DNA of 64,000 bases from the NCBI GenBank assembly GCA_030753015.1, contig JASMDC010000002.1, positions 1-64,000 of the forward strand, written 5' to 3'. The DNA is from Candidatus Undinarchaeales archaeon. Lineage in GTDB: Archaea; SpSt-1190; JASMDC01. Under the pieces are notes generated by a model that searched no databases, was not told the origin of the DNA, and saw only the letters and a list, made by a program, of their open reading frames with translations. Made by a program: the position numbers and the translations under genes. This document shows, one piece after another, positions 9,806 through 63,975 of the stretch (positions are counted from its first letter, which is position 1; every line of letters begins with the position of its first letter).

Positions 9806-9863
9806 CGCCCCTCGCACCCCGGTGCAATATAATAAAGGTTTCCCATCCCGGACCGGCGTTCGC

Positions 9864-11114
9864 TCACAACCCAGTGCCTTCGGGCCAGTCGAGCATCTGG
9901 ACGGTGAGCTCGGTCCCGGCCTCGATCCGCTTGGTCCCCTCGGGAACGACGGCCAGACCGTTGGCACGGGACATGGACGTCAGCATACCGGAGCCCTGCT
10001 CGCCGGTAGTGTGAGCGTGGAACCGGTCGTCGCGTCGCTCGACCATCACCCTGATGAATCCTCGCCGACCGCTGTTGGAGACCGCCTCGTCCAGCACTGC
10101 CCGCACCGTGGGTTTGGCCAGATCGCTCCGTCCGAGCATGCGCAGGATGGCAGGCCTAACGAACTGTTCGAAGCTCACCATGGTGGACACCGGATTGCCC
10201 GGTAGGCCCACGAGGGGCACGTCGCCGGCCAGCAGACCGAACGCCAGTGGTTTTCCCGGCTTCATGTTCACCTGCCAGAACCGCATCCGACCCTCAGCGT
10301 CCAGCACGTCCTTGACCACGTCGTAGTCGCCCACCGACACGCCGCCCGAAGTGAGCACCAAGTCGGCACCATTGTCCAGTGCTGCACGGAGCTTGGCAGT
10401 GAGGTCGTCGGTAGTATCACGGGCGATACCTAGGGCGAGCGGCACACCGCCCGTCCGGGTCACGAGGGCTACCATTGAGTGCTCGTTGGAGTTGCGGATC
10501 TTGCCCGGTCCGAGCGGTTCGTCCACATCCACCAGCTCGTCACCAGTGGCAAGGATGGCCACACGCGGTCGTCGGTGGACCGTGACCGTGGCACAGCCCA
10601 GGGACGCGAGAACGCCCACCTCGGCGGGACGGACCAGCCGGCCACGCTCCAGCACGACCTCGCCGCTGTGTACGTCCTCGCCGCTGGGGCGCACGTTCTT
10701 TTTGGGTGGGACGGAGGCCCTGATCTCGATGACGTCCGCTGGCGACGCCAGCCGGTCCTGTTTGGACCGATCGAAGTCGGACGTGTCCTCGTACTTGACC
10801 ACGGCGTCGGCACCGGGAGGGAGAGGAGCACCGGTCATGATCCGCACTGCTGTGCCCGGTGCCACGGTTTCTGCGTGGACGTACCCGGCGGCCACGGACC
10901 CGGCGACCCTCAGGGTCACAGGCACACTAAGAGTGTCGGAGGCGCGGACGGCGTATCCGTCCATAGCGGAGTTGTCGAACGGAGGGATGTCGGTGTTGGC
11001 CACAACGTCAGCGGCGACGACCTGTCCCAGCGCCTCGATGATGGGCACCTCTACGGGCTCCAGTGCCTTCACGTGCGCCAGGATCTCTGCGAGCGCGTCC
11101 TCCACGGATATCAT
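9864..11114 (-). CDS. moeA: molybdopterin molybdenumtransferase MoeA
   Basis: 416 residues. Inserts molybdate or tungstate into adenylylated molybdopterin, the last step of pterin cofactor synthesis. Seen in order: DIPPFDNSAMDGYAV near 41-55, TGAPLPPGADAVVKYED near 95-111, ATGDELVDVDEP, SGGVSVGDYDVVKDVL, MKPGKPLAFGLL and LVGLPGNPVSTMVSFE. All MoeA domains are present, ending in a small beta-barrel domain IV. The start MISVEDALAEI fits the family. TATA-like ATTAAATGG lies about 36-44 nt upstream. It is divergent from a tungstate/molybdate transporter, a sensible partnership. Confidence 0.95.
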   Translation of the reverse strand: MISVEDALAEILAHVKALEPVEVPIIEALGQVVAADVVANTDIPPFDNSAMDGYAVRASDTLSVPVTLRVAGSVAAGYVHAETVAPGTAVRIMTGAPLPPGADAVVKYEDTSDFDRSKQDRLASPADVIEIRASVPPKKNVRPSGEDVHSGEVVLERGRLVRPAEVGVLASLGCATVTVHRRPRVAILATGDELVDVDEPLGPGKIRNSNEHSMVALVTRTGGVPLALGIARDTTDDLTAKLRAALDNGADLVLTSGGVSVGDYDVVKDVLDAEGRMRFWQVNMKPGKPLAFGLLAGDVPLVGLPGNPVSTMVSFEQFVRPAILRMLGRSDLAKPTVRAVLDEAVSNSGRRGFIRVMVERRDDRFHAHTTGEQGSGMLTSMSRANGLAVVPEGTKRIEAGTELTVQMLDWPEGTGL

Positions 11115-11233
11115 GGTATCGTACCTTGAGCGCGACCAGCCGGCACAACCATTTAATCCTTTCCCGGCAGCGCACACCCGTCAGGTGAAAACGTTTAAAG
11201 CGTTGCACTAGGCCACCTTGCCCGGTAAGCGAG
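11115..11233. promoter_or_regulatory. divergent moeA/wtpA promoter region
   Basis: ATTAAATGG (complement of 11150-11158) serves moeA; GTTTAAAG at 11193-11200 serves the transporter, 34-41 nt before its ATG. The latter lies inside the imperfect palindrome AACGTTTAAAGCGTT, a possible site for a metal-responsive repressor. No ModE-like gene is seen nearby. Confidence 0.5.
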
Positions 11234-12310
11234 ATGGACGTGGGACAACGAGAGAACATCGCCCTCGCGGTCTTGCTGTCCATGACGCTTCTTGCTGGGT
11301 GCACCAGCGGCGGGACGGGGAACGTGTCTGGATCGGGAAAGACCGATGCACCCCCCACGACTAAGGGGACGACCGTGCTGAGCATCTATCATGCTGGAAG
11401 CCTGGCAGTGCCGTTCGAGGCACTGGAGAAGACATTCGAAGCTTTGCACCCGGACATCGACATCCAGCGCGAGGCCGCGGGCTCAGTGAAGAGTGTGCGC
11501 AAGATGACCGAGCTGGGAAAGACACCTGATGTACTGGCCACGGCCGACTACAGCCTCATCCCGAGTATGACGATCCCGGACCACGCTAGCTGGTACGCGG
11601 CCTTCGCCACCAACGAGCTGGTGATCGCCTACAACGAGAAGAGCGCCTACCGCGACGAGATCACCACGGACAACTGGTTCGAGGTCCTGCGCCGGCCTGA
11701 CGTGAAGTTCGGATTCTCCAATCCCAACGACGATCCTTGCGGCTACAGGGCGACCATGATCAACCTATTGGCCGAGACACATTACAGGGACGACAAGATA
11801 TTCAAGGACCTCATCGCCTCCAACGTCGCCTTCACCGTGGAGAACGACACCAGGGTCGTCGTACCGAAGAGCGAAGCGTTCGATCCGAACACCAAGAAGG
11901 TGCTCATCCGCAGCATGGAGACCGAGCTCCTGGCCGCGCTCGAGAGCGGTGAGATCGACTACTTCTTCATCTACCGGTCGGTCGCAATCCAGCACCACCT
12001 CGACTTCATCGAACTGCCCCGTGAGATCAACCTCGGGGCCACAGAGCACGGTGATTTCTACATGAAGTACTCACTGCAGCAGGCGACGGGGAAGGTCGTC
12101 CAGGCCAAGCCCATCGTGTACGGGGTGACCATCCCCGACAAGGCCGTTCATCCAGAGCTGGCGACGCAGTTCCTGGCCCTTCTCCTGGGAGAGGAGGGGC
12201 AGAAGATCTTCGCTGACCTGGGGCAGCCCCCCATCGTACCACCGATGTCCAGCGATCCTGGTAAGCTCCCGCAGGAGCTCCGGCCGCTGGTCCTGGCAGA
12301 GAATAAATAG
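11234..12310 (+). CDS. wtpA: tungstate/molybdate-binding lipoprotein, WtpA/ModA-like
   Basis: 358 residues. Signal peptide with lipobox LLAGC near 19-23, a Ser/Gly/Thr linker, then an extracytoplasmic binding protein. Family marks: IYHAGSLAVPFEALEKTFE near 50-68, EAAGSVKSVRKMTELGKTPDVL near 79-100, TADYSLIPSM, and FGFSNPNDDPCGYRA near 157-171. These match the WtpA/ModA group that binds oxyanions by backbone amides. It delivers substrate to the permease encoded next. Tungstate versus molybdate preference cannot be decided by eye. Confidence 0.9.
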   Translation: MDVGQRENIALAVLLSMTLLAGCTSGGTGNVSGSGKTDAPPTTKGTTVLSIYHAGSLAVPFEALEKTFEALHPDIDIQREAAGSVKSVRKMTELGKTPDVLATADYSLIPSMTIPDHASWYAAFATNELVIAYNEKSAYRDEITTDNWFEVLRRPDVKFGFSNPNDDPCGYRATMINLLAETHYRDDKIFKDLIASNVAFTVENDTRVVVPKSEAFDPNTKKVLIRSMETELLAALESGEIDYFFIYRSVAIQHHLDFIELPREINLGATEHGDFYMKYSLQQATGKVVQAKPIVYGVTIPDKAVHPELATQFLALLLGEEGQKIFADLGQPPIVPPMSSDPGKLPQELRPLVLAENK

Positions 12311-12320
12311 GGTGACGAAC

Positions 12321-13148
12321 ATGGCCGGGACCGATGAGAGCATGCGAGGGCGCCTTGACCGGGCGTTCGGCGGTGTGCTCTGGCTCGGTATGGCCGCTGC
12401 CCTGCTCCTCGTGGTCCTCCCGCTGGCCGCCATGGTGTGGACCCAGGTGACCGGGGACTGGCCCCGGCTGATGGCTACCGCCGTCGACGACGCTGTTGTG
12501 TCGTCCATACTGCTCACCATGTACTGCGCGGTCCTCGCTACAGCTATCGCCATGGCCTTCGGGCTCCCGGCCGCCTACCTGCTCGCCCGTCACGAATTCA
12601 CGGGCAAGGAGCTTGTGGAGAGCGTGCTCGACGTGCCGGTGGTCATCCCGCACACCGTGGCAGGGATAGCTCTGCTGACGGTCCTGGGGCGCCACGGGCT
12701 CATCGGTGCACCGCTGGCGGACGTCATCACCTTCGTCGACGCGCTCCCCGGCGCCGTCGCCGCCATGCTCTTCGTCTCGTTCCCGTTCTTCGTCAACGCA
12801 GCTCGCGAGGGCATCGCTGCAGTCGATCCACGACTCGAGAACGTGGCGCGCACCCTGGGCGCCACCCGCTTGGAGGCCGTGACGCTGGTCACCTTGCCTC
12901 TGGCAGCACGGAGCGTGCTCTCGGGCGCGGTGATGACCTGGGCGCGAGGTGTGTCGGAGTTCGGCGCGGTTGTAATCATAGCCTACTACCCCATGATCGC
13001 ACCCACGCTCATCTACGAGCGTTACATAGGCCACGGGCTGGCGGCCTCCCGCCCGGTGGCCGTGATGCTCATCATGACCTGTCTGGGCGTGTTCCTGGCC
13101 ATGCGTGTTCTCTCAAGGAGGTTGTTTGCCTATGATCGAGCTCCGTGA
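12321..13148 (+). CDS. wtpB: tungstate/molybdate ABC transporter permease
   Basis: 275 residues from ATG 12321, preferred over GTG 12312 because AGGGTGA lies five bases upstream. About six hydrophobic segments alternate with loops. The permease coupling loop is visible as the EAA-like stretch REGIAAVDPRLENVARTLGA near 155-174. The substrate follows from its position between the binding protein (10 nt upstream) and the ATPase (17-nt overlap). Part of a three-gene operon; forms the membrane channel. Confidence 0.9.
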   Translation: MAGTDESMRGRLDRAFGGVLWLGMAAALLLVVLPLAAMVWTQVTGDWPRLMATAVDDAVVSSILLTMYCAVLATAIAMAFGLPAAYLLARHEFTGKELVESVLDVPVVIPHTVAGIALLTVLGRHGLIGAPLADVITFVDALPGAVAAMLFVSFPFFVNAAREGIAAVDPRLENVARTLGATRLEAVTLVTLPLAARSVLSGAVMTWARGVSEFGAVVIIAYYPMIAPTLIYERYIGHGLAASRPVAVMLIMTCLGVFLAMRVLSRRLFAYDRAP

Positions 13149-51257: not shown

Positions 51258-51329
51258 CGGCCCCTCCATCTGGGAAAGGTATAAATAGCGCCGAGTGAGC
51301 GAAACCCCGGCAGTAGGGGACTGTCATCT
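51258..51329 (+). promoter_or_regulatory. promoter of GCS2 paralog 1
   Basis: AAAGGTATAAATAGCG: TATA at 51,280-51,288, leaving a leader of about 20 nt before GTG 51330. The leader holds CAGT-AGGGG-ACTG (51,311-51,323), a short hairpin. No CCGCAA element here. Confidence 0.55.
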
Positions 51330-52397
51330 GTGATCCTTAACGAGGGGCATTCCGTTGGGCTCGAGAAGGAGTTCTACGTCGTCGGCGCCGACAACAACAC
51401 TTACGAACAGGCCATCGTGAAGGACAGCGTAATCCCCCGCATGAAGGCGGAGCTGGGAGCCTACGACGAGTCCTGGGGTCCAAAGTGCTACATCGACGTC
51501 ACGGGTCCCCTTGAGGTCGTCACACGGCCTTGCTCGGACCTGCGCCAGCTCTCCGATGATATTACCACGGCCTACCGCATCGCGCAGGAGGAATCCGACG
51601 ACCGAGGCCTCTACACACTGGGTATGGGCTCACGTCCAGGCAAGCCCAGCGACCAGGCAGGGCTCCACGTGCACGTGGGCTTCAAGGACGAGGCCGAGGC
51701 CGAGTACGTGTTCAACGAGCTACAGAAGCACGTACCGGACATCATGGCCCTTTCGGCCAACTCACCGTCGCGGTTCGGAGGGGTTAAGGACACGCGAGCG
51801 AGTGGCGGGTACTACGGTCACAAGTTCTCTCCGTACTCTGACACGGGCCGCACCTCGGTCATCTACAAGCGTAGCAACACCCTGGAGGTGCGGTGCATGG
51901 ACTCCCAGGGGACGCCGGAGGAGGACGTGGCCATCGCCGCGTACATATTCGGTATCGCCGAGAAGGCCAAGGAGGACCACGCTAACGGTGTCGAACAGGA
52001 TACTGTCGGGAATGAGGGGCCCAAGAACTTCAAGCACGCTGTCAAGAAGGGCATGGAGGCCACCTTCAAGATCGATGACGAGAAGGTCCCGGCGTACCGC
52101 GTGGTCGAGGACACCTTCGTCGACATCCGCCACTACCTGGAGCGGTACGACTGCCCCGATGAGGTCATGGACGTCCTTGAGGGGAAGGTCAAGGAACGTC
52201 GCTCGGGGGCTGACGACATCCTGGACATCTACCACGAGACCGGCTATAGCAGCATATGGACCGGGATTAAGGACTTCTTCACGCTTCACCGGGGCCACGA
52301 CGAACTCTACGATCGGCTCGCACATAGAGGGCGTAGCGATGACGAGACCACCGTCGATGTCCCAGATGCAGACCTGCTACTCGCAAGAGCCGCATAA
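51330..52397 (+). CDS. GCS2-family carboxylate-amine ligase, paralog 1
   Basis: 355 residues of the glutamate-cysteine ligase family 2 (YbdK-like) fold, which makes an amide between a carboxylate (glutamate in known members) and an amine using ATP. Seen: GHSVGLEKEFYVV near 6-18 with the metal-binding acidic pair, GPLEVVTRPCSDL near 59-71, QAGLHVHVGF near 108-117, ALSANSPSRFG near 140-150, EVRCMDSQGTPEED near 185-198. A C-terminal signature RRSGADDILDIYHE near 293-306 is shared by all tandem copies but is not a general GCS2 motif that I know. GTG start. Soluble. Substrate unknown. Confidence 0.85.
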   Translation: MILNEGHSVGLEKEFYVVGADNNTYEQAIVKDSVIPRMKAELGAYDESWGPKCYIDVTGPLEVVTRPCSDLRQLSDDITTAYRIAQEESDDRGLYTLGMGSRPGKPSDQAGLHVHVGFKDEAEAEYVFNELQKHVPDIMALSANSPSRFGGVKDTRASGGYYGHKFSPYSDTGRTSVIYKRSNTLEVRCMDSQGTPEEDVAIAAYIFGIAEKAKEDHANGVEQDTVGNEGPKNFKHAVKKGMEATFKIDDEKVPAYRVVEDTFVDIRHYLERYDCPDEVMDVLEGKVKERRSGADDILDIYHETGYSSIWTGIKDFFTLHRGHDELYDRLAHRGRSDDETTVDVPDADLLLARAA

Positions 52398-52503
52398 TAC
52401 GGCCCATTGTTGCGTTCTATTGTAGTATGGAATGGACTATTTCGCGACCGTTATAAGAAATGTATAAATACCACATCGTGCGCCGCCCCCGCACAGTAAC
52501 GAC

Positions 52504-53625
52504 ATGACAATCGTCAACGAAGGTCATTCGGTTGGGCTCGAGAAAGAGTTCTATGTTGTGGACGGGAGCAACCAGACCTACCAACAGTACACTATCGATA
52601 CAATCGTCAAGGAACGGATGCAAAATGAGATGAAAGCATACGATTCCGATGTAGGACCCAAGTGCTATGTCGATGCATCCGGTCCGTTTGAGATCACGAC
52701 CCGTCCGTGTACAGACCTTCAGCAACTTTCCGATGATATCACAACGACCTACAGGTTCGCCAAAGAAGAGTCGGAGAAACAAGGTCTCTATGCTCTCGGA
52801 ATGGGCGGACGGCCCGGAGCTCCAGACGATGCGGCAGGGCTGCACGTGCATGTCGGTTATGCGAATGAGGGCGAAGCCGACTACGTGTTCCACGAGCTCC
52901 AGAAGCACGTACCGGACATCATCGCGCTCTCGGCCAACTCACCGTCACGGGACGGGATGGTCAAATGCCTGCGGCAGTACGGCAATCCGATAAAGCACCT
53001 CTTCGACTTCCTGGGTGCAGGAGATACGCTCTTCTACGGTCATACGTTCTCACCGTTCGAGAAGACGGGCCGTTCCTCTGTCATCTACAAACGGGACGAC
53101 TCGAACACCGTCGAGGTCCGCTGCATGGACACCCAGGGAACCCCCGAGGAGGACACGGCCGTCGCAGCCTACATTTTCGGCATCGCCGAGAAGGCGAAAG
53201 AGGACTTCAATAACGGTGTTGAACAGGTGGGTATCGGTAAAGAGGAGAAACGCAACTTCAAGCGTGCGGTCCGTAAGGGGATGGAGGCGACCTTCAGAGT
53301 GGATGGGAAGAAGGTGCCAGTATCCCAGGTCGTCGCAGCGACACTCAAGGAGATCCAACCTTACCTGGAGCAGTACGATTGTCCTGATGAGGTCATCGAT
53401 GTGCTCAATGAGCGCGTCGCAACCAAACGCTGCGGTGCTGATGACATAATGGACATCTATCGCGAGGAGGGGGTCGGCGGCTTCTGGGGCAGTCTCACAA
53501 GACCGTTCCTTCTCTCGTCCAAGCGGGAAAGGCTCATCAAGCATCTCGGCTACCGCGACCGGTTCGAGGAAGAGCAGGAAAGACAAGATGATGATCCCTC
53601 TTCCATGGTAGCTTCTCCGACGTAA
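52504..53625 (+). CDS. GCS2-family carboxylate-amine ligase, paralog 2
   Basis: 373 residues, same motif order as paralog 1 (GHSVGLEKEFYVVDG, GPFEITTRPCTDLQQL, AGLHVHVGYANEGEA, EVRCMDTQGTPEED, RCGADDIMDIYREE). It carries an extra 15-20 residue insertion between the HVHVG and EVRCMD motifs (NPIKHLFDFLGAGDTLFYGH), a region that varies in every copy and is a candidate specificity loop. In the C-terminal signature Ser is replaced by Cys (RCGADD). TATAAATA at 52,463-52,470 is 34-41 nt before the ATG: independent promoter, short leader. Confidence 0.85.
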   Translation: MTIVNEGHSVGLEKEFYVVDGSNQTYQQYTIDTIVKERMQNEMKAYDSDVGPKCYVDASGPFEITTRPCTDLQQLSDDITTTYRFAKEESEKQGLYALGMGGRPGAPDDAAGLHVHVGYANEGEADYVFHELQKHVPDIIALSANSPSRDGMVKCLRQYGNPIKHLFDFLGAGDTLFYGHTFSPFEKTGRSSVIYKRDDSNTVEVRCMDTQGTPEEDTAVAAYIFGIAEKAKEDFNNGVEQVGIGKEEKRNFKRAVRKGMEATFRVDGKKVPVSQVVAATLKEIQPYLEQYDCPDEVIDVLNERVATKRCGADDIMDIYREEGVGGFWGSLTRPFLLSSKRERLIKHLGYRDRFEEEQERQDDDPSSMVASPT

Positions 53626-53635
53626 AGGACGTCCG

Positions 53636-53711
53636 CTGCCCTTTTTTCGTAATGTTTATATAGGACCGGGCCCGCAACCACTTGCGGGTAACAACAGGGG
53701 AAACGGGTACT
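53636..53711 (+). promoter_or_regulatory. promoter and inverted repeat before GCS2 paralog 3
   Basis: A T-run (53,642-53,647) probably ends the paralog 2 transcript. TTTATATAG at 53,655-53,663 is the TATA box. CCCGCAA-CCAC-TTGCGGG (53,671-53,688) is a perfect 7-bp inverted repeat at the expected transcription start, where a bound protein or an RNA hairpin would act. Confidence 0.6.
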
Positions 53712-54833
53712 ATGGAGGATTTCCTAGAAACAGGCCATAGTGTAGGTCTTGAAAAGGAGTTCTACGTCGTCGACGGGAACAACGGGATGACCAACGACAC
53801 CTACAATCTGGTGCACGACATCGGCGATCGTATGGAAAAAGAACTGGGGGCCTATGACAGCAACTGGGGCCCGAAGTGCTATGAGGACCTCTCCGGCCCT
53901 CTGGAGGTCACCACCCGCCCCTGCAAGGATTTGCGCCAGCTGACCAAGGACATCACGACGTCATATAAGATCGCCCAGGAGGAAGCAGAGAATAACGGCC
54001 TCTACGCTCTGGGGATGGGAAATCGACCAGGCAAGAACGACGACCATGCGGGACTTCACGTTCATGTGGGATTCAAGGACGAGGGGGAGGCGGAGTACGT
54101 GTTCCACGCTCTTCAGAAGCATGTCCCCGACATCATGGCGCTGTCCGCGAACTCGCCCACCAACTATGGCGCTTTCAAGGACATACGCCAGGTCGGTGGC
54201 CTCTTCACACAGCTGGTAGAGAACGTGCTCGCGGTGCCCACCCTCTGGGGGCACAATTTCAGCAAGTACGGCCATACGAGCCGCCGCTCTGTCATCTACA
54301 TGCGGGAAAACACCGTAGAAGTGCGGTGCATGGACTCGCAGGGATCGGGGGAAGAGGACGCGGCCATCGGCGCTTACATATTCGGTATCGCCGAGAAAGC
54401 CAAGGATGACTACGCCAACGGTGTCCCTATGGCGGAGGTCGGACGCTGGGAAGAGAAGAACTTCACACGCTCTCTTGTCAAGGGCATGGAAGCGACCTTC
54501 AAGGTAGACGGCGAGAAGGTCAAGGCCTATCAGGTCGTGGACGACACTTTCGAGGAGATCATGCCGTTTCTCAAGCAGTACAAGTGCCCCAAGAAGGTCC
54601 TCGACGTGCTCGAATCCAAGATAGAAGGCCGGCGCTCTGGCGCGGACGACATCCTCGATATCTACAGGGAGGAGCTCCCTCAGGGCTTCCTGGCGCGGCT
54701 CATCGCTCCATTCAGGCGAAAGGAAGGCCAGAAGGAACAGCTCATCAAACACCTTGCATACCGCGACGAGTTTAAGGAAGAGGTTGAGCTCGAGGATGCT
54801 TTGCCGTGGCAGCCTATGCTCGCAGCAGCATGA
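53712..54833 (+). CDS. GCS2-family carboxylate-amine ligase, paralog 3
   Basis: 373 residues. TGHSVGLEKEFYVVDG near 8-23, GPLEVTTRPCKDLRQL, AGLHVHVGFKDEGEA, ALSANSPTNYG, then a long hydrophobic insertion (GLFTQLVENVLAVPTLWGH) before VEVRCMDSQGSGEED, and RRSGADDILDIYREE near the C-terminus. The insertion is like that of paralog 2 in position but not in sequence. ATG 53712 is supported by the TATA box and by alignment to the other copies; the longer upstream frame is not used. Confidence 0.85.
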   Translation: MEDFLETGHSVGLEKEFYVVDGNNGMTNDTYNLVHDIGDRMEKELGAYDSNWGPKCYEDLSGPLEVTTRPCKDLRQLTKDITTSYKIAQEEAENNGLYALGMGNRPGKNDDHAGLHVHVGFKDEGEAEYVFHALQKHVPDIMALSANSPTNYGAFKDIRQVGGLFTQLVENVLAVPTLWGHNFSKYGHTSRRSVIYMRENTVEVRCMDSQGSGEEDAAIGAYIFGIAEKAKDDYANGVPMAEVGRWEEKNFTRSLVKGMEATFKVDGEKVKAYQVVDDTFEEIMPFLKQYKCPKKVLDVLESKIEGRRSGADDILDIYREELPQGFLARLIAPFRRKEGQKEQLIKHLAYRDEFKEEVELEDALPWQPMLAAA

Positions 54834-54892
54834 TCGGACCTCTCGAACGGTCGTTCCGAATCCTTCCGTCAACTGTTGGCTGAAACCGCACA

Positions 54893-54915
54893 CCGCAAAC
54901 GCAACGTTTATATAG
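54893..54915 (+). promoter_or_regulatory. CCGCAA-GTTTATA promoter element before GCS2 paralog 4
   Basis: CCGCAAACGCAACGTTTATATAG; TATA core TTTATATAG with a purine-rich BRE-like stretch upstream, 33 nt before ATG 54948. It matches the elements upstream of both nitrilase genes. Confidence 0.65.
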
Positions 54916-54947
54916 AGGCCAGAGCAGCACCACTCACCAGTAGCAAC

Positions 54948-56012
54948 ATGGAGATCGTGAACGAGGGTCACTCGGTAGGGCTCGAGAAGGAGTTCTACAT
55001 TGTGAACCACGGAAGCAACGGTAATCTTCACCTTGGGGCAGAGATGGGTATCGCATCCGGTATCGGGAACAGAATGCGTGAGGAGTTGGGTGCCTACGAT
55101 GACGAGGTAGGTCCCAAAGCTTACCTCGATGCATCCGGTCCCATGGAGGTCGTTACCCGTCCCTGCTCGGACCTTCACCAGCTCACAAATGATATCACGA
55201 CCGCCTACGACATCGCCCAGGAAGTAGTGGAAGCGCATGGTAAGTACGCCCTGGGGATGGGGACGCGACCTGGGGCGCCGGACGATAAGGCCGGGCTCCA
55301 CGTTCATGTGGGCTACGGCGACGAGGCAGAGGCGGAATACGTCTTCACCGTGCTCAAGCATCACGTGCCCGAGATCATGGCACTATCAGCGAACTCGCCC
55401 AACAAGGACGGCACTATCAAGGATATGCGTGCCGCCAACCGTTCGTACGGCCAACGCTATTCCCCCTTCAGTACGACCAGCAACGAATCCGTCATCAAGA
55501 AGCGTGACAATACCCTGGAGGTGCGGTGCATGGACACCCAGGGGACAGCAGAAGAGGACGCAGCGATCGCTGCATACATCCTAGGCATCGCCGAGAAGGC
55601 CAAGATCGATTACGCCAACGGAGAGGGCGTCTCGGACCGGTTCGGCGACGAAATCAAGAACCATGAGCAGGCGATAAAGGACGGTATGGCCGCGACGTTT
55701 ACGTACGGTGACGAGACGCGGTCGGTACAGGAAGTGGCCCAGGACACATTCGTCGCTATCCTTCCCTACCTTCGTCAATACGATTGTCCTGACGAAGTGG
55801 TGGGCATATTGGCTGACAAGATCGTCCGCGGACGCTCGGGTGCCGATGATATCCTAGACATCTACGCCGAGCACCGATCCCACGGCTTCATGCAAACACT
55901 TGCATCTCCTTTCACGTTCTGGAGCAGGAGGAAAGCGCTCTACAACGACCTTGCTCATCAGCGTGAGTGGAAGGCGCAGGAACGCGAGCGGGCGGACAGC
56001 GGAGGTGCCTGA
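54948..56012 (+). CDS. GCS2-family carboxylate-amine ligase, paralog 4
   Basis: 354 residues. GHSVGLEKEFYIVNHG, GPMEVVTRPCSDLHQL, AGLHVHVGYGDEAEA, HVPEIMALSANSPNKDG, EVRCMDTQGTAEEDAA and RGRSGADDILDIYAEH. It has Ala where paralogs 1-3 have Cys in GPK(C/A)Y. It ends in a basic/aromatic amphipathic tail (GFMQTLASPFTFWSRR), like the other copies. First gene of a three-gene operon with paralogs 5 and 6. Confidence 0.85.
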   Translation: MEIVNEGHSVGLEKEFYIVNHGSNGNLHLGAEMGIASGIGNRMREELGAYDDEVGPKAYLDASGPMEVVTRPCSDLHQLTNDITTAYDIAQEVVEAHGKYALGMGTRPGAPDDKAGLHVHVGYGDEAEAEYVFTVLKHHVPEIMALSANSPNKDGTIKDMRAANRSYGQRYSPFSTTSNESVIKKRDNTLEVRCMDTQGTAEEDAAIAAYILGIAEKAKIDYANGEGVSDRFGDEIKNHEQAIKDGMAATFTYGDETRSVQEVAQDTFVAILPYLRQYDCPDEVVGILADKIVRGRSGADDILDIYAEHRSHGFMQTLASPFTFWSRRKALYNDLAHQREWKAQERERADSGGA

Positions 56013-56015
56013 GAG

Positions 56016-57065
56016 ATGATCTCCGAAATCCTCAACGACGGCCATTCGGTGGGGCTGGAGAAGGAGTTCTACGTGGTGAACGGCCATGGTAGCAATCGCA
56101 GAGGCTACGAGATCGTCCCGGCCGTCGAGGAGCGCATGCGCGAGGAAATGGGCGTCTACGACTCGGTCGTCGGCCCGAAAGCATATAACGATCCCACCGG
56201 TCCTGTTGAAGTTACCACTCGTCCCTGCACGGACCTGCAACAGCTCACCGACGATGTCACGACCGCCTACCGCATCGCGCAGGAGGAGGCTGACGCACGT
56301 GGCTGGTACGCCCTCGGGATGGGCACCCGTCCTGGAAAGCCCTACGACATGGCAGGACTGCACGTCCACATCGGTTTCGCCGACAAGGAGGAGGCCCGCT
56401 ACGTGTTCCACGCACTCCAGGCGCACGTTCCGGACATCATGGCACTGTCGACCAATTCTCCATCGAATGATGGCAAGGTCAAGGACATACGCATGGACGC
56501 ACGCGGCCTAGATGGCCTCTTCATGATCAGGTTCGGTCACCAGTTCGATCCGTTCGAAGACACATCACGCGACTCGGTCATCTACGTACGCGAGAACACC
56601 CTGGAGCTGAGATGCATGGATAGCCAGGGGAGCGCCGTGGAGGACGCAGCCATCGCCGCCTACATCCTCGGTATCGCCGAGAAGGCCAAGGAGGACTATA
56701 CCAACAATGCCTCCATACCGGACGTGCCAGCAGAAGGGCCCGAGAACTTCCAGAAGGCCATCGAGGACGGGATGACCGCGACGTTCACCCACGGGGGCAC
56801 GGAGATCCCTGCGCACCAGGTCGTGGCCGATACGCTCGCTGAGGTCAGACCATACCTGGAGCAATATAATTGCCCTGAGAGCGTCATAGCCTCTCTGGAG
56901 GACAAGGTCGAGAACAAGCGGTCCGGAGCCGACGATATCCTCGACATCTACCAGGAGACGGCACCCAAAGGATTCAAGGAGCGTGTTGGCGCGTTCTTCC
57001 ACCCGTGGCGCACGAAGGAGCGGCTCATCGACCGGCTCTCCCATCGGGACGGCGGGGGGTGCTGA
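56016..57065 (+). CDS. GCS2-family carboxylate-amine ligase, paralog 5
   Basis: 349 residues, starting 3 nt after paralog 4 with GGAGGTG about nine bases before the ATG, so operon translation. Motifs: DGHSVGLEKEFYVVNG, GPVEVTTRPCTDLQQL, AGLHVHIGFADKEEA, ALSTNSPSNDG (Thr for Ala in the ALSANSP motif), ELRCMDSQGSAVEDAA and KRSGADDILDIYQE. The specificity-loop region (MDARGLDGLFMIRFGHQF) is of intermediate length. Confidence 0.85.
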   Translation: MISEILNDGHSVGLEKEFYVVNGHGSNRRGYEIVPAVEERMREEMGVYDSVVGPKAYNDPTGPVEVTTRPCTDLQQLTDDVTTAYRIAQEEADARGWYALGMGTRPGKPYDMAGLHVHIGFADKEEARYVFHALQAHVPDIMALSTNSPSNDGKVKDIRMDARGLDGLFMIRFGHQFDPFEDTSRDSVIYVRENTLELRCMDSQGSAVEDAAIAAYILGIAEKAKEDYTNNASIPDVPAEGPENFQKAIEDGMTATFTHGGTEIPAHQVVADTLAEVRPYLEQYNCPESVIASLEDKVENKRSGADDILDIYQETAPKGFKERVGAFFHPWRTKERLIDRLSHRDGGGC

Positions 57066-57069
57066 GAGA

Positions 57070-58140
57070 ATGGCCGAGATCCTTAACGAAGGCCACTCGG
57101 TGGGGCTGGAAAAGGAGTTCTACGTCGTTGATGGTACGGGGAGCACGTACCGTCAGTCGATCCTCGAGGGCCACATCGTGGACAGGATGCAGGCGGAGAT
57201 GGACGCCTACGACGTCAGTGTCGGCCCCAAGTGCTACGAGGACGGTTCGGGTCCACTGGAGGTCGTTACACGGCCCTGCACGAATCTACAACAGCTCACC
57301 GACGACGTCACCACGGCCTACCGCATCGCCCAAGAGGAGGCCGATACTCTCAACTGCTACGCCCTGGGAATGGGTATCCGTCCCGGCCAGTCTAAAGATA
57401 AAGCAGGCCTTCATGTCCACGTCGGATATGCCGATGAGGGGGAGGCGCGTCATGTCTTCTACACGCTCCAGCGCCATGTACCGGACATCCTGGCGCTCTC
57501 GGCCAACTCCCCGATCCGGAGCGGGAAGGTCAAGGACGTCCGTCTGGTCAAGGGCTCTTACGGCCACGAGATCTCGCCCTACTCTAGCACATCCAACAGT
57601 TCTGTGATCCAGAAGCGATCCGGGACCATCGAGGTGCGGTGCATGGACAGCCAGGGATCGGGCGAGGAGGACGCGGCCATCGCCGCGTACATATTCGGGA
57701 TCGCCGAGAAGGCCAAGGATGAGTACCATGGACTCGACGAGGTACCTCCCGAGGCGGATGTCATGTACGATGTCAGCAGCTCGTACGAGGTATTGCAGAA
57801 AGAGCTGGTGAAGAACAGGGACAGGGCCATCAAGCAGGGCATGACAGCCGTTTTCAAGACTGACGGTGAAGAGGTGCCAGCGTATCAGGTAGCAGCCGAC
57901 ACCCTTGAGGCGATCAAACCTTTCCTTGAACGCTACGACTGTCCCGCGGACGTCCTTGCCATCCTTGAGGACAAGGTGGAGCGCCGTCGATCGGGAGCGG
58001 ACGACGTGCTGGACATCTACCGCGAAGTAGAGCAAGAGAAGGGACTGGACACGTGGTGGCAGGGAGTGAAGCGGTTCTTCCGCAAAGACGACGGCCTGTT
58101 CGGGCCCGACCTGTACGACCGCATCGCTCACCGCGATTAG
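57070..58140 (+). CDS. GCS2-family carboxylate-amine ligase, paralog 6
   Basis: 356 residues, ATG 4 nt after the stop of paralog 5. Motifs: EGHSVGLEKEFYVVDG, GPLEVVTRPCTNLQQL, AGLHVHVGYADEGEA, ALSANSPIRSG, EVRCMDSQGSGEEDAA and RRSGADDVLDIYRE. A distinctive insertion of about 20 residues (EVPPEADVMYDVSSSYEVL) follows the GIAEKAKD helix. Last gene of the three-gene operon. Confidence 0.85.
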   Translation: MAEILNEGHSVGLEKEFYVVDGTGSTYRQSILEGHIVDRMQAEMDAYDVSVGPKCYEDGSGPLEVVTRPCTNLQQLTDDVTTAYRIAQEEADTLNCYALGMGIRPGQSKDKAGLHVHVGYADEGEARHVFYTLQRHVPDILALSANSPIRSGKVKDVRLVKGSYGHEISPYSSTSNSSVIQKRSGTIEVRCMDSQGSGEEDAAIAAYIFGIAEKAKDEYHGLDEVPPEADVMYDVSSSYEVLQKELVKNRDRAIKQGMTAVFKTDGEEVPAYQVAADTLEAIKPFLERYDCPADVLAILEDKVERRRSGADDVLDIYREVEQEKGLDTWWQGVKRFFRKDDGLFGPDLYDRIAHRD

Positions 58141-58158: not shown

Positions 58159-58186
58159 CTTGCCCGCAAGGGAACGTTTATTAAGC
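58159..58186 (+). promoter_or_regulatory. CCGCAAGGGAA-GTTTATT element before nitrilase 1
   Basis: CTTGC-CC-GCAAG is an inverted repeat that merges into CCGCAAGGGAACGTTTATTAAGC (58,164-58,186), with the TATA core TTTATTAAG. The start codon lies 38 nt downstream. Nearly identical to the element at 59,020-59,042. Confidence 0.65.
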
Positions 58187-58223: not shown

Positions 58224-58982
58224 ATGTACGAGCTCGAGCCTGGTGATGAACGGCCAGACCACATCACGGTAGGCCTCATCGATGCCGATGTCCCGTTCAC
58301 CAGCAGCGATACCCGGGATGAGACCGTCATGGACCACTATCAGGATGCCATCGGAGCGGCCTTGGAGGCCGAGCCCGACATCCTTGTTGGTGCTGAGTAC
58401 GTATTCTTCCCCTATCAGCCACTCACCCGCGAGGAGCGGGACGAACGGTTCAACGTGATGCGTCAGCTATCGACGGAGCATCCGGACACCCTTCTCATGC
58501 CCGGTACCTACATCTGGCAGGAGCAGGGACATCTGCACAATACACTACCTGTGTTCCACAGGGGTGAGCTGGTGTTCACCTATGAGAAGCAGAATCCGGC
58601 TAATGCCGAGCGCTGGATGGAGAGCGACCATAACTTGGCATACACTGCCGAGAAGAGCGAGGGAGTTCTCGAGTACCAGGGCCTTTCCGTGGGGATGGAG
58701 ATCTGCTACGACCATACGGCACACACACTGCGGGACAAGGGTGTCAGGGACCTCGATCTTCAGGTGTTGGTAGCCAACGGCAAGGATTTCATCGACACGG
58801 CCACCATGGTAAGAGAAGGAGGGTACCATCTTCGCGTCGATGGCAGCGACAGCTCTTCGTACGATAGCGTCGAAGTGCACAAGTGTGTCGGTCCTTACAA
58901 GTACACGACCGTCGGACCTGAACGTATGAGCGAGCTCCCTCATGACATGAAGCTCAACCTCTACGAGCTGGACATGGCGTGA
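58224..58982 (+). CDS. nitrilase-superfamily amidohydrolase 1
   Basis: 252 residues of the carbon-nitrogen hydrolase fold. Catalytic triad candidates are all present: Glu in GAEYVFFPY near 54-62, Lys in YEKQNPANAE near 114-123, Cys in GMEICYDHT near 152-160. Family members hydrolyse nitriles, amides or N-carbamoyl groups; an amidase is most likely. It may trim or repair amide products of the adjoining ligases, as Nit1 does for deaminated glutathione in eukaryotes (analogy only). Own promoter with the CCGCAA element. Confidence 0.85.
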   Translation: MYELEPGDERPDHITVGLIDADVPFTSSDTRDETVMDHYQDAIGAALEAEPDILVGAEYVFFPYQPLTREERDERFNVMRQLSTEHPDTLLMPGTYIWQEQGHLHNTLPVFHRGELVFTYEKQNPANAERWMESDHNLAYTAEKSEGVLEYQGLSVGMEICYDHTAHTLRDKGVRDLDLQVLVANGKDFIDTATMVREGGYHLRVDGSDSSSYDSVEVHKCVGPYKYTTVGPERMSELPHDMKLNLYELDMA

Positions 58983-59019: not shown

Positions 59020-59042
59020 CCGCAAGGGAAGGTTTATCAAGC
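59020..59042 (+). promoter_or_regulatory. CCGCAAGGGAA-GTTTATC element before nitrilase 2
   Basis: CCGCAAGGGAAGGTTTATCAAGC differs from the nitrilase 1 element at two positions and stands 38 nt before GTG 59081, the same spacing. This points to shared regulation or duplication of promoter and gene together. Confidence 0.65.
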
Positions 59043-59080: not shown

Positions 59081-59902
59081 GTGTACTCACTTGAAGATAC
59101 GACGAGCAATGATCGACCTGACCACATCACCGTCGGGCTCATCCAGGGCGACGTACCGTTCGACCGCTACAGTCCACGCGACGAGTCCTTCATGGACGCG
59201 TACCAGGACACGATCTCCACGGCCCTGGAGGCCAATCCGGACGTCCTCGTAGGCTCCGAGTACTCCTTCTTCCCCCACGTACCCCTCACTCGCGAGGAGA
59301 AGGACGAGCGACTTGAGCAGATGCGCGAGATCTCAGAGGAACACCCTGACACCCTCCTCCTACCGGGCACCTACCTCTGGCAGGAGGGCGGCAAGCTCCA
59401 CAATACCCTCCCCGTGTTCCACAAGGGCGAGATTGTCTACTCCTACGACAAGCAGAACTCGGCGAACGGGGAGAACTGGGTCGCCGAGCAGCATGGTCTT
59501 GAATATGAGGCGGAGAAGAGCCGCGGTGTGTTCGAGCACCGGGGGCTCTCCATGGGGCTGGAGATCTGCTACGATCACTCGTGCTACGAACTGTCGGGCA
59601 AGGATGTCGAGGACCTGGACCTGCAGTTCCTGGTAGCGAACGGGAAGAACTTCATCGAGAGCGCTGCAGTGGTCAGGTCCGGTGGCTACCACGTCCGCTG
59701 TGATGGCGACGAGGACGGGTACGGTGGCGTTGAGGTGAACCGGCGGGTCGGCAGCGATGAGTTCGACGAGGTGTCCACCGGGCAGGAACGTGACCTTCCC
59801 AACGACATGAAGCTGGACCTGTACGACCTGGACATGCGGCGGCCCGGATCCGGCGAGGATGGCTTCTCCGTGGCTGGTTTTATCTCCCGCATTCTCCACT
59901 GA
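59081..59902 (+). CDS. nitrilase-superfamily amidohydrolase 2
   Basis: 273 residues, paralog of the upstream gene along its whole length (RPDHITVGLI near 12-21 in both). Glu in GSEYSFFPH, Lys in YDKQNSANGE, Cys in GLEICYDHS. It has a C-terminal extension of about 15 residues (GSGEDGFSVAGFISRIL) not found in copy 1. GTG start fixed by alignment to copy 1 and by the TATA spacing. Substrate unknown. Confidence 0.84.
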   Translation: MYSLEDTTSNDRPDHITVGLIQGDVPFDRYSPRDESFMDAYQDTISTALEANPDVLVGSEYSFFPHVPLTREEKDERLEQMREISEEHPDTLLLPGTYLWQEGGKLHNTLPVFHKGEIVYSYDKQNSANGENWVAEQHGLEYEAEKSRGVFEHRGLSMGLEICYDHSCYELSGKDVEDLDLQFLVANGKNFIESAAVVRSGGYHVRCDGDEDGYGGVEVNRRVGSDEFDEVSTGQERDLPNDMKLDLYDLDMRRPGSGEDGFSVAGFISRILH

Positions 59903-60240: not shown

Positions 60241-61503
60241 TTATGTCTTGACCGGCACCGGCTGCCCGCCCGGCAGGTCCTCGGCCTTCCCCGTGTCCTG
60301 TACGTAGCTGTAGAGCGCCCCCTCAAGCTCCTCGACCGTGGCGACCTGTTCGAGCTCTTGGGACAGCTGCTTGGCCCGACGGTTCCAGAACGGCTCGTGC
60401 TGTTCGATGTACTCGCGCACGATACCGGCGATCTCCTGTACCGGGACCTCCTCCATCGGAGCGAAAAGCGACTCCATGGTGCCCGCCTTGATCGCACCGT
60501 CCTCGTCACCGGCGATGCCGTACCTGCCGGCCACGCGCTCGTAGGTGCGTAGGGACGAGTCCATCTTGCCGAAGGGCAGGTCGGAGCCGAAGAGGATGCG
60601 GCCCTCGTACTCCTGGTGCCGCGAAAGGATGATGTCAGTGAGGCCGAGGGTGTACTTGCCGACGTCCTCTGGCTTCTCCACCTCGTTGTCCTCCAGGGAG
60701 AAGGGCATGGTGATGGAGAGGTCGAGGTACACGTTCTCGTGGGATGCCGCGACATCGGCCGCCTGGGTCACTGCAGCGGTGCGTGCCTTCGCCGATACTA
60801 CCCGTGAGCTCCCGCCGCAGCCGGAGTGGCCGATGATGATGGTGGTGTCCGGGGCCTTCTCGGCGAGCTTGCCCATACGGTAGGGCTCGCACATGATCAC
60901 GTCCTCCGGATTGTCCTGGTCGATGAGGTCGGGACGGGCCTGGGAGTGGAGGAGCACGGGCATGCCCAGGGCACCTGCCACACGCGCCACGGTAGCGGAC
61001 TCGTCCGAGTCGGCGGCGAACTTCTGCGCCCGGGGATGGAGCTTGAGCCCCTCGGCGCCCTCCAGACGGCACCGCACGACCTCGTACACAGCAGCGTACG
61101 GTCCTTCCGATCCTGTGGTGCCGTTGGGGTCCACCCGACAGAACGGGTTGAACCGGCCTTCGTACTCGTTGGCTGCCCACAGCACACGGTCGTTTGCATA
61201 GTGGAATGGGATGAGGACACCGTTGGGATCCGGCACGTTCCGGTCGCCCTCGTTGAAGGGGAACACGTTACACTGGCTCTGCGGTCCGTAGCCCGCGTCC
61301 ATAGCCTCAATGATCTCCTCGGGTGTCAGGCTCCGCTGTGCCTTTTTCTCCCCGACATGGTCGTACCCTAGGCTGGCCTGGACCTCGGCCATGTTCTCCC
61401 ATGTGTACGGTGCGGTCAGTGTCTCGATGCCGTCCGGGGCGTCCCACCCCATGTGGACGTGACAGTCGAGGATCTCCCTGTCCGTGTCGCCGTACTCGAT
61501 CAT
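60241..61503 (-). CDS. metal-dependent amidohydrolase (amidohydrolase_2 type)
   Basis: 420 residues. TIM-barrel hydrolase marks: DCHVHMG with the HxH near 13-19, GLKLHPRAQKF with Lys/His near 151-161, VLLHSQARPD near 187-196, IIIGHSGCGG near 221-230 and FGSDLPFG with the late Asp near 303-310. These fit zinc-dependent hydrolases and decarboxylases of the amidohydrolase_2 group. A helical C-terminal extension of about 70 residues follows. Third gene of the leftward operon; starts 2 nt after the GCS2-7 stop. Confidence 0.84.
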   Translation of the reverse strand: MIEYGDTDREILDCHVHMGWDAPDGIETLTAPYTWENMAEVQASLGYDHVGEKKAQRSLTPEEIIEAMDAGYGPQSQCNVFPFNEGDRNVPDPNGVLIPFHYANDRVLWAANEYEGRFNPFCRVDPNGTTGSEGPYAAVYEVVRCRLEGAEGLKLHPRAQKFAADSDESATVARVAGALGMPVLLHSQARPDLIDQDNPEDVIMCEPYRMGKLAEKAPDTTIIIGHSGCGGSSRVVSAKARTAAVTQAADVAASHENVYLDLSITMPFSLEDNEVEKPEDVGKYTLGLTDIILSRHQEYEGRILFGSDLPFGKMDSSLRTYERVAGRYGIAGDEDGAIKAGTMESLFAPMEEVPVQEIAGIVREYIEQHEPFWNRRAKQLSQELEQVATVEELEGALYSYVQDTGKAEDLPGGQPVPVKT

Positions 61504-61505
61504 GA

Positions 61506-62792
61506 TTACACCAGATACTCCATATTGGTAGATTTCTCGATGACATAGGATGCCAGGTCCTCGCCGTCGTTCACGGCATCGATCTGGACGTCGGCGCCGG
61601 AGCGGCCACTGTACACGCGCGCTTCCAGACGCTCGCGTACATCGTCCGGAATCTTGAGGTCATCGAGGACCGGCTTGATCTTCTCGTATGTCTCCTTGAT
61701 AGCGTCCTTAGCTGCGACCTCTACATCCTGGCCGTCCTTGGAATAGGTGATCGTGCCGTCCATGCCACCGTAGCCCACCTCGTCGATGTTCTTCTTGAGG
61801 ACATCGTTGTCCATCGCGATATCGTACGCGGGGCGGTGATCGGCCAGCCATGTGTCCGATGCGTCCAGCTGTGAGCTGAGCTGGGCGTACTGCTGGTCGC
61901 CGTCGGTCTCCTTACCGAAGAACTTGCGGATGCCCCGGCCCATGGCCGAGAAGATACCGGCATGGTAGACCTGTTCCAGCTGATCCTGCAGGTCGTTGCG
62001 CTCATGCTCTTTGTTGGCGAGTTCGGTCCAGTCGTAGTTACCGCTGGCCATTTCCTTCTTGGCGAACTCAGCGATGCCCCATATGAACGCGGCCACCGCG
62101 ACGTCCTCCTCGGCAGTGAGCTGGGCGTCGGGGCAGCGCACCTCCACGGTCCCCTTGAGCCGGTCGGAGTCCTTCTCTCCGGCGATGACGACCCCGCGGC
62201 CGTCCCAGCGCTCGCGCTTGAAGCTCAGGACCTCGGAGTGGGCCCGGTCCTCGTCGCCGTACACCACCGGATCGTTCGGGATGGTGCGGCCGTACTGCGT
62301 ACCGCCCATATTGGTGGAGTATATGCGGGCGTCCTTGCACCACTTACCCAGTGTGCCCTTCTTTGGCGAGTTGGAGGCGAGGGCGATGATCTCGGGGAGG
62401 TGGGCCCGCAGGGCCTTGGTGACGAACAGCGCCTCACGGTCGTCGGCAGCGCCGACGTGGGTGTGCATGGCCATGTAGCCGCCCTTGTCCGGATGGCGTG
62501 CTGCGGTCATGATCTTGTAGCCGCGGCCGGTGGCCTCGTCACGTACCTTCGTGACCATCTCTTTCATTTCGGTGTTCAGGTCAGTTAGGTTTTCGTAGGG
62601 GTGCGAGTTGATCTCGATACCCCAAACGCTGAATCCGAGCGCTGACGGGTAGTCGTGGTTGATACGGTCGTCGCTGCACGCGTTCTCGATCGAAGTGCAG
62701 TCAACGGGATTGCCATTGGGATCGACGATGATGAACTCCTTCTCCATGCCGATGGTGTGGCCGTCGTTCAGCTTGCCCCACGACATGATCAT
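61506..62792 (-). CDS. GCS2-family carboxylate-amine ligase, divergent paralog 7
   Basis: 428 residues, the most divergent copy. Family motifs persist: DGHTIGMEKEFIIVDPNG, GIEINSHPYENLTDL, AMHTHVGAADDREA, LPEIIALASNSPKKG, VEVRCPDAQLTAEED and, late, YSGRSGADVQIDAV as a variant of the shared C-terminal signature. An insertion of about 90 residues with charged helices precedes the last part. The first ATG overlaps the stop of the ATP-grasp gene (ATGA), so it is translationally coupled; ATG 62786, with GGAGG nine bases upstream, is an alternative start. Lacks the RPC motif of copies 1-6, so a different substrate is likely. Confidence 0.84.
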   Translation of the reverse strand: MIMSWGKLNDGHTIGMEKEFIIVDPNGNPVDCTSIENACSDDRINHDYPSALGFSVWGIEINSHPYENLTDLNTEMKEMVTKVRDEATGRGYKIMTAARHPDKGGYMAMHTHVGAADDREALFVTKALRAHLPEIIALASNSPKKGTLGKWCKDARIYSTNMGGTQYGRTIPNDPVVYGDEDRAHSEVLSFKRERWDGRGVVIAGEKDSDRLKGTVEVRCPDAQLTAEEDVAVAAFIWGIAEFAKKEMASGNYDWTELANKEHERNDLQDQLEQVYHAGIFSAMGRGIRKFFGKETDGDQQYAQLSSQLDASDTWLADHRPAYDIAMDNDVLKKNIDEVGYGGMDGTITYSKDGQDVEVAAKDAIKETYEKIKPVLDDLKIPDDVRERLEARVYSGRSGADVQIDAVNDGEDLASYVIEKSTNMEYLV

Positions 62793-63781
62793 TCCCCTCC
62801 GTGGAACTCTTTCTCCAGCTCCACCGAATACTCGACGATCTGGCGCACTGCGTCCCTGCCATGGCCGGTGCTGCGCTCGAGATTGTAGAATCCACCAGGG
62901 GCGGAGTTAAGTTCCAGCACGATGTAGTCGACGTTACCGTCCTTATCGTATCGCTCCAGGATGTCCACACCGGAGAAGTGCAGGCCGTCACCCATGGCCT
63001 TCACGGCCTCGACCGCCAGCTCTGCGACCTTCTGGTATTCATTATCAGGGACCTTCTCTCCATGGCCACCGTTGTGGATGTTAGTGATCCAGTCGTTGTT
63101 GACACGATACATGGCGCCGATGCACTCGTCGCCCACCACGTATGCCCGGATGTCCCGAAAGCTCTGGTGCGGCCAGTACTTGAACACGTCCTCCTGGACG
63201 ATGTCCGTGCCCAGATTCACCTGCTTGAGCGCCTCTTCGGCGGTGTCCACCTTGCGGATGCCCTTGCCGCCGAAACCATTGGAGGGCTTGAGCACGTAGG
63301 GGCCCTCGACACGTTCGCAGAACTCACGGATATCATCGTAAGAATGAGGGATGACCGTCTCGGCCACGGGCACATCGGCCTGCTCCAGCAGCTGCTGGGT
63401 GCGCACCTTGCTCCCAGTGACCGGGTACATGTCCGGATCGTTGAGAACAAGAGTGCCGTTGGCCTCGAACTCGCGCAGGATGCCCGAGGGGGGCCCGGCC
63501 ATGAAGTTGATAATGACGTCGGGATCGCCGCCCAGCTCCTTGCGGATCTTCTGCTTGACGTGGCCGCCGCCGCTGTAGTGCTTGGGGAACTTCGCGTGCG
63601 CGCCGCGTACGCCGTCCATGGAGTTGACCGCTTCATCGAAGTACCGTCCCAAGGAGGAGTTCATGGAGTTGTCGATATTGTCATGATAGAGCACCTTGAT
63701 GGACTCGTCATCGAGTTCGAACCCGGTGAGCTTGTCCAACAGGTCGCGCCAACCGCTTATCGTGGCCACTTCCTGTGACAT
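62789..63781 (-). CDS. ATP-grasp ligase, RimK/GshB-like
   Basis: 330 residues from ATG 63781; the frame is open to GTG 63850 and a GTG at 63799 is another option, but TATA elements near 63,858-63,870 and 63,893-63,905 do not favour 63850. ATP-grasp marks: GPYVLKPSNGFGGKGIRKV in mid-protein (ATP lysine and glycine loop), DIRAYVVGDECIGAMYRV, NIHNGG, and the metal site VLELNSAPGGFYNLERSTG near the C-terminus, as in RimK, LysX, CofF and glutathione synthetase. These join an amine to a carboxylate through an acyl phosphate. First gene of the operon with GCS2-7 and the amidohydrolase, an arrangement like a GshA/GshB pair. Confidence 0.88.
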   Translation of the reverse strand: MSQEVATISGWRDLLDKLTGFELDDESIKVLYHDNIDNSMNSSLGRYFDEAVNSMDGVRGAHAKFPKHYSGGGHVKQKIRKELGGDPDVIINFMAGPPSGILREFEANGTLVLNDPDMYPVTGSKVRTQQLLEQADVPVAETVIPHSYDDIREFCERVEGPYVLKPSNGFGGKGIRKVDTAEEALKQVNLGTDIVQEDVFKYWPHQSFRDIRAYVVGDECIGAMYRVNNDWITNIHNGGHGEKVPDNEYQKVAELAVEAVKAMGDGLHFSGVDILERYDKDGNVDYIVLELNSAPGGFYNLERSTGHGRDAVRQIVEYSVELEKEFHGGE

Positions 63782-63849
63782 CGATGAGCTGATGGGCACG
63801 TTAGTTTGCGCATAGGTATTCCCTATTCCTTTGGATGTAAAGAGCTGCA

Positions 63850-63975
63850 CGTCCCGGTGTTTTTAAAGATTTCGAAACCGTGCGGTAGTAACACTTAATA
63901 TATCTCCCCCCGAAACACTGACGGCGGCCAATCCCGGCCATAGTCTTTTATATCTCGGCTTGGTCTTGAAAGGCC
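63850..63975. promoter_or_regulatory. divergent promoters at the right end
   Basis: Leftward TATA-like elements TTTAAAAAC (63,858-63,870) and ATATATTAAG (63,893-63,905) serve the ATP-grasp operon. TTTTATATC at 63,946-63,954 lies 22-30 nt before the rightward GTG 63976. Confidence 0.55.

Follow-up and report, generated by a model that had tools for sequence, protein, structure and literature searches.

Why would an archaeon keep six tandem, diverged copies of what appears to be a single kind of amide-forming enzyme? The question is raised by the first 64 kb (hereafter, the window) of a 184-kb contig (C40 of genome G000; Candidatus Undinarchaeales archaeon, JASMDC010000002.1) belonging to an archaeal genome of 3.85 Mb in 117 contigs. 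At 51330–58140 of the window, six complete open reading frames (ORFs) of the GCS2 type (glutamate–cysteine ligase family 2), each of 349–373 amino acids (aa), stand head to tail on the + strand. A preliminary description, made from the letters of this DNA, had reported six complete paralogs in a row and a seventh 3.4 kb away. The six ORFs are indeed intact, and the seventh, 3.4 kb from copy 6, lies on the opposite strand, so that it falls outside the head-to-tail series. The array is as follows.

51330–52397, + strand: GCS2 copy 1, 355 aa, GTG start; own TATA box at 51280
52504–53625, + strand: GCS2 copy 2, 373 aa; own TATA box at 52463
53712–54833, + strand: GCS2 copy 3, 373 aa from ATG; own TATA box at 53655
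54948–56012, + strand: GCS2 copy 4, 354 aa from ATG; opens the operon of copies 4-5-6; TATA box at 54907
56016–57065, + strand: GCS2 copy 5, 349 aa, 3 bp past copy 4; without a TATA box
57070–58140, + strand: GCS2 copy 6, 356 aa, 4 bp past copy 5; without a TATA box

The answer that we favor, with not quite even confidence, is that γ-glutamyl-type amide ligases may have expanded in this lineage, diverging in acceptor and expression, and may work together with an ATP-grasp ligase and hydrolases encoded nearby. Copy number and arrangement are what is unusual about the array; both the enzyme family and the chemistry are already known.

Family, fold, and divergence of the copies

The Pfam profile, alignment with the YbdK sequence, and fold matches agree in identifying the copies as GCS2-family ligases, as had been proposed. 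Copies 1–6 scored 42–47 bits and copy 7 scored 36 bits against the Pfam GCS2 profile (PF04107; curated cutoff, 21). A superfamily survey (PMC2588565) gives the catalytic motifs as GhExE, the acidic residues of strands 2 and 3, HxH, a loop Arg, and ExRxxD. In our alignment, copies 1–6 are invariant for GLEKE, the strand-2 and strand-3 acidic residues, HxH, the loop Arg, and ExRxxD. When aligned with YbdK, HVHVG and EVRCMD fall on the corresponding YbdK segments, and GLEKE matches YbdK GIELE by eye. The preliminary description had all seven copies keeping GHSVGLEKEF, HVH(V/I)G, and E(V/L)RCMD. This holds for copies 1–6 and fails for copy 7, whose motifs are variant (GHTIGMEKEF, HTHVG, and EVRCPD); copy 7 keeps most of the motif positions, and no strand-2 acidic residue could be identified in it. 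The same description had named the loss of ATP or metal ligands from most copies as grounds for refuting its reading; no such loss was found, since the catalytic residues are invariant in copies 1–6.

A predicted structure of copy 1 (predicted local distance difference test, 83; predicted template modeling score, 0.86) had YbdK as its best match (Foldseek E, 1.3e-13). It aligned with YbdK and a Salmonella homologue at Z scores of 31.9–32.5 over ∼299 residues (root-mean-square deviation, 2.4–2.5). The second-best fold match was a plant glutamate–cysteine ligase with a transition-state analogue (Z of 26.8), and lower matches comprised Dop and PafA (Z about 20–22), GshA, and glutamine synthetases. 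Motifs and fold together suggest that copies 1–6 are active carboxylate–amine ligases of the glutamine synthetase (GS) fold, in the GCS2/YbdK branch. Escherichia coli YbdK [Protein Data Bank (PDB) ID code 1r8g] resembles the array copies in fold, length, and catalytic motifs and is the top match in both sequence and structure; however, it is remote from them (∼20% identity), and it is one gene, in contrast to six diverged tandem copies. By the NCBIfam rule for the YbdK family (TIGR02050; cutoff, 176.4 bits), the copies are relatives and not members (66–72 bits). The NCBIfam cutoffs for glutamate–cysteine ligases were likewise missed (best, 72 bits vs. 332–437 required).

The six copies share 54–61% pairwise identity, and copy 7 is 32% identical to copy 1. 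The longest exact tract common to any two copies is 29 bp. This comparison gives no support for recent gene conversion, and together with the 54–61% identity, it rules out an assembly or repeat artifact. Also counting against an artifact is the placement of the array within the 184-kb contig between genes that read, from their ORFs, as archaeal housekeeping: a glycerol-1-phosphate dehydrogenase-like gene, tryptophanyl-tRNA synthetase, and both phenylalanyl-tRNA synthetase subunits upstream and truA, SRP54, FtsY, and ribosomal proteins downstream. Pairwise ratios of nonsynonymous to synonymous substitution rates (dN/dS) are 0.17–0.35, with dS of ∼1.1–2.5 or saturated, and every copy is thus under purifying selection. 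Given these ratios, a near-saturated dS, and no recent gene conversion, the copies are neither decaying nor freshly amplified: they are old, and all have been retained by selection. In a tree, copies 1–6 form one clade that excludes copy 7 and other archaeal GCS2 proteins, on long branches that leave its deeper placement unsure. The six-copy tree is star-like, without supported forks, and does not resolve the order of duplication.

Length varies most clearly in the loop between the Arg of a “KDxR” segment and a “YGH” segment (strand 4 to core strand 5), which is longest in copies 2 and 3 and intermediate in copy 5. Homology equates it with the long loop that bears an active-site arginine in the superfamily (PMC2588565). 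The variable loop may determine the amine acceptor.

The surrounding amide-bond locus

The array belongs to a larger amide-bond locus, with two tandem nitrilases followed by a divergent operon that runs from an ATP-grasp gene through GCS2 copy 7 to an amidohydrolase gene. The preliminary description had missed these neighbors, which add a second ligase class (the ATP-grasp protein) and three amide or C–N hydrolases.

58224–58982, + strand: nitrilase-superfamily C–N hydrolase 1, 252 aa; Glu58-Lys122-Cys161 triad; TATA box at 58177
59081–59902, + strand: nitrilase-superfamily C–N hydrolase 2, 273 aa; Glu-Lys-Cys triad; TATA box at 59033
60241–61503, − strand: Amidohydro_2 metal-dependent amidohydrolase, 420 aa; metal-site motifs; closes the ATP-grasp operon
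61506–62792, − strand: GCS2 copy 7, 428 aa; middle of the ATP-grasp operon
62789–63850, − strand: RimK-family-like ATP-grasp ligase, 353 aa, true start perhaps further in; first in the operon; TATA-like box at 63902

Both nitrilases retain the Glu-Lys-Cys triad, with 61% identity between them, and they scored 29.3 and 23.9 bits against Pfam CN_hydrolase (cutoff, 23.2). The amidohydrolase scored 58 bits against Amidohydro_2 and has the HxH, Lys, His, His, and Asp metal-site motifs. Neither it nor the nitrilases had a solved relative by sequence at the thresholds used. The ATP-grasp protein is nearest to MptN/RimK/LysX-type ligases, below their curated cutoffs (129.9 bits for the RimK family TIGR00768, slightly below the 143.4 required), and its closest solved relatives are of the α-glutamate/RimK/LysX type.

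TATA-like boxes lie 41–57 nt upstream of copies 1, 2, 3, and 4, both nitrilases, and the ATP-grasp gene. None was found before copies 5, 6, and 7 or the amidohydrolase gene, each of which overlaps or trails its neighbor by a few bases. The pattern occurs by chance in ∼1.4% of 50-nt windows and in 6.5% of AT-richer ones; because it was fitted after the sites had been seen, we give no P value. These signals support seven predicted transcription units: copy 1; copy 2; copy 3; copies 4-5-6; nitrilase 1; nitrilase 2; and ATP-grasp, copy 7, and amidohydrolase. The division noticed earlier, into separately promoted copies 1–3 and an operon of copies 4–6, is matched by the TATA boxes and by spacings of 3–4 bp.

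Elsewhere in the genome, two more GCS2 proteins (on contigs C29 and C23) bring the total to nine. A second amide-bond locus lies on contig C95 (L045:8550-10235 and 10755-12715; L047:5591-7513 and 9821-10936). There, two tandem paralogs of the window's nitrilase pair stand beside peptidase-like and ureohydrolase-like (agmatinase-like) genes, and three tandem paralogs read by eye as AstE/AspA-like metalloenzymes (the one tested had no NCBIfam hit). The lineage thus seems prone to expanding amide-bond enzymes in tandem.

Related loci in other genomes

That the copy number is unusual, as first suggested, was borne out by a Pfam GCS2 survey of 394 archaeal genomes including G000. Thirty-four had a match, and the other 33 of these had two matches at most, making the copy number exceptional among the genomes searched. 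Close relatives of the array copies were not found in the 393 other archaeal genomes, viral contigs, or phages; 227 genomes of another archaeal phylum held remote GCS2 proteins only, and plasmids held remote matches only. Scanning genome contigs with a two-motif pattern returned one remote YbdK-like gene, with motifs strict enough that diverged members could be missed. No other genome searched had a six-copy array, nor do the open-licence papers covered describe one. Similar neighborhoods might be described in an amidoligase survey that Iyer and colleagues published in 2009.

The company kept by copy 7 recurs more widely. In other archaea, GCS2 adjoins an Amidohydro_2 gene (L037 and L039) or an amidohydrolase-like gene (L036). 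The closest archaeal relatives of the window's amidohydrolase (297 genomes) come from five genomes of one genus; at the two of these loci that we read (L037 and L039), the gene is beside GCS2, and in two more genomes of the genus (G040 and G060), coordinates place the amidohydrolase relative and a GCS2 match <1 kb apart. A YbdK-like GCS2 gene also lies near an amidohydrolase gene on a Solirubrobacterales contig. Two genomes of a single genus (L033:8019-11380 and L034:3427-6857) have the order FGase-like, GCS2, ATP-grasp, which could be an archaeal two-ligase module of the glutathione type. The copy-7 operon exemplifies this wider GCS2–amidohydrolase/ATP-grasp pattern.

L037 and L039 (genus g18, which appears to be Methanopyrus-like) share the conserved order PHP-like, GCS2, Amidohydro_2; in L039, an FGase-like gene comes next, with a weak match to a helix-turn-helix at its N terminus. 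The recurrence in a methanogen-like genus raised a possible link to pseudomurein, for which a paper on pseudomurein genes, with no mention of GCS2, gave no support. GCS2 domains also occur in larger proteins. At L035:8752-12189, GCS2 forms the N-terminal domain of a 1145-aa protein whose long C-terminal portion appears Ig-like by eye, and many genomes of the same phylum have GCS2 matches within ORFs of about 1100–1400 aa.

Function of the array

In the reaction expected of each ligase, ATP would phosphorylate a carboxylate, most likely the γ-carboxylate of glutamate, and the acyl group would then pass to an amine. Under the reading that we favor, an old tandem duplication within the lineage would have given rise to copies that were all kept by selection and that probably vary both in the amine they accept and in their expression. 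The ATP-grasp ligase would perform a second amide-forming step, as GshB does after GshA, and the amidohydrolase and nitrilases would trim or recycle the products. The outcome would be the synthesis and turnover of a set of small γ-glutamyl-type amides. Fold, motif retention, selection, gene order, promoter signals, and the recurring pairings come from computation; activity, the glutamate donor, distinct acceptors, and a common pathway are inferred.

Known systems supply parts of this scheme. Haloarchaeal GshA (Haloferax volcanii HVO_1668), which acts in γ-glutamylcysteine synthesis (PMC7278568), is likewise an archaeal GCS2 ligase with the same expected chemistry. In contrast, there are nine GCS2 proteins here, six of them in tandem, and a cysteine acceptor for the array copies is without support. 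Glutathione synthesis by GshA and GshB similarly sets a GCS2-type ligase beside an ATP-grasp ligase, as occurs here within one operon (copy 7), but the ATP-grasp protein of the window is RimK/MptN-like and not GshB, and its operon also holds an amidohydrolase. The amidoligase neighborhoods of Iyer, Aravind, and colleagues (2008) combine GS-fold ligases with peptidase-type neighbors and are predicted to make peptide metabolites; a six-copy GCS2 array is not described in the available sections of that work.

Several points weigh against our reading. The NCBIfam cutoffs for GCS2 proteins of named function were missed by far (66–72 vs. 176 bits for the YbdK family), and the copies have no close relative with a known substrate. 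The GS fold also houses hydrolases, such as Dop, which makes ligase activity less than certain. The variable loop is placed near the active site by homology, and its contact with the acceptor is presumed. Finally, the array is transcribed apart from the ATP-grasp operon, and the argument for a shared pathway is one of position.

The preliminary description had gone further and proposed a combinatorial or stepwise system. Its most explicit form, in which six ligases with six acceptors and the ATP-grasp ligase would make up a branching, combinatorial builder of undescribed γ-glutamyl-type amides trimmed by the nitrilases and amidohydrolase, seems to us possible but doubtful. Long divergence under selection and loop-length variation near the active site are the only hints of distinct substrates and of such use.

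Rather unlikely, in our judgment, yet a serious rival, is that the six copies are isoenzymes for one ligation (for example, of a γ-glutamyl amide made in bulk as a thiol, solute, or nitrogen store) that differ in regulation or dosage. Invariant motifs, a highly conserved core, separate transcription units, and a star-like tree without clear subfamilies would all fit. However, ∼40–45% amino acid divergence with differences in loop length is much for pure dosage, and regulation alone is insufficient where copies 4-5-6 have one promoter in common.

The ligases might instead glutamylate different amines for catabolism or detoxification, as GlnA2 and GlnA3 do with polyamines, with the nitrilases and amidohydrolase releasing the products. 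GlnA-type γ-glutamylpolyamine synthetases (PMC5403932, PMC8998196, and PMC8394153) provide a model, being paralogous GS-superfamily ligases for different amines. Amine-specific paralogs occur in Streptomyces coelicolor (PMC5403932 and PMC8998196) and in the archaeon Haloferax mediterranei (PMC8394153); the abstracts of these papers mention no tandem array. The second nitrilase locus, with its ureohydrolase-like and peptidase-like genes and three metalloenzyme-like paralogs, would also suit catabolism. We nevertheless consider this explanation, likewise a serious rival, unlikely, as the GlnA-type precedents come from the glutamine synthetase branch of the superfamily and not from GCS2, no oxidase, dehydrogenase, or aminotransferase was recognized in the locus, and the second ligase (ATP-grasp) is of a biosynthetic type.

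The earlier suggestion of an amide-linked “tag” found no support. PafA-like tagging, in which glutamate or a small tag would be put on proteins or peptides, draws on the structural kinship of copy 1 with PafA and Dop (Z about 20–22) and on the proposal that GCS2 was the source of PafA (PMC2588565). The kinship is distant, with YbdK and plant glutamate–cysteine ligase clearly better fits (Z of 27–32), and PafA and Dop, which have a further domain at the C terminus (PMC3511204), are larger than the array copies. A scan of 44–64 kb for small Pup-like ORFs with a GGE or GGQ ending found none (the sole candidate was a 48-codon ORF ending in GE, antisense to copy 4), and no proteasome genes were recognized beside the array, all of which makes tagging very unlikely. 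Least probable of all is a Dop-like reversal, in which some or all copies would be amide hydrolases or deamidases: the fold is common to Dop and several neighbors are hydrolases, but the motifs and structure are nearest to those of ligases, and we know of no precedent for an expansion of ATP-binding hydrolases.

The array could point to new archaeal metabolites. The small-molecule amide chemistry of archaea is little known, and among γ-glutamyl compounds, a review covers mainly γ-glutamylcysteine (PMC7278568). With six selected, diverged ligases, the locus offers a compact panel on which amine choice by GCS2 enzymes could be tested, and the GCS2–amidohydrolase and GCS2–ATP-grasp pairings elsewhere suggest an uncharacterized type of pathway more widespread than the array.

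G000 (contamination estimate, 5%) measures 3.85 Mb vs. 0.6–1.1 Mb for all other compared genomes of its class; either the lineage is unusual, or there is a problem of placement or binning. Within the window, a single ORF of 8347 codons at 16585–41628 (− strand) apparently encodes a giant secreted or surface protein.

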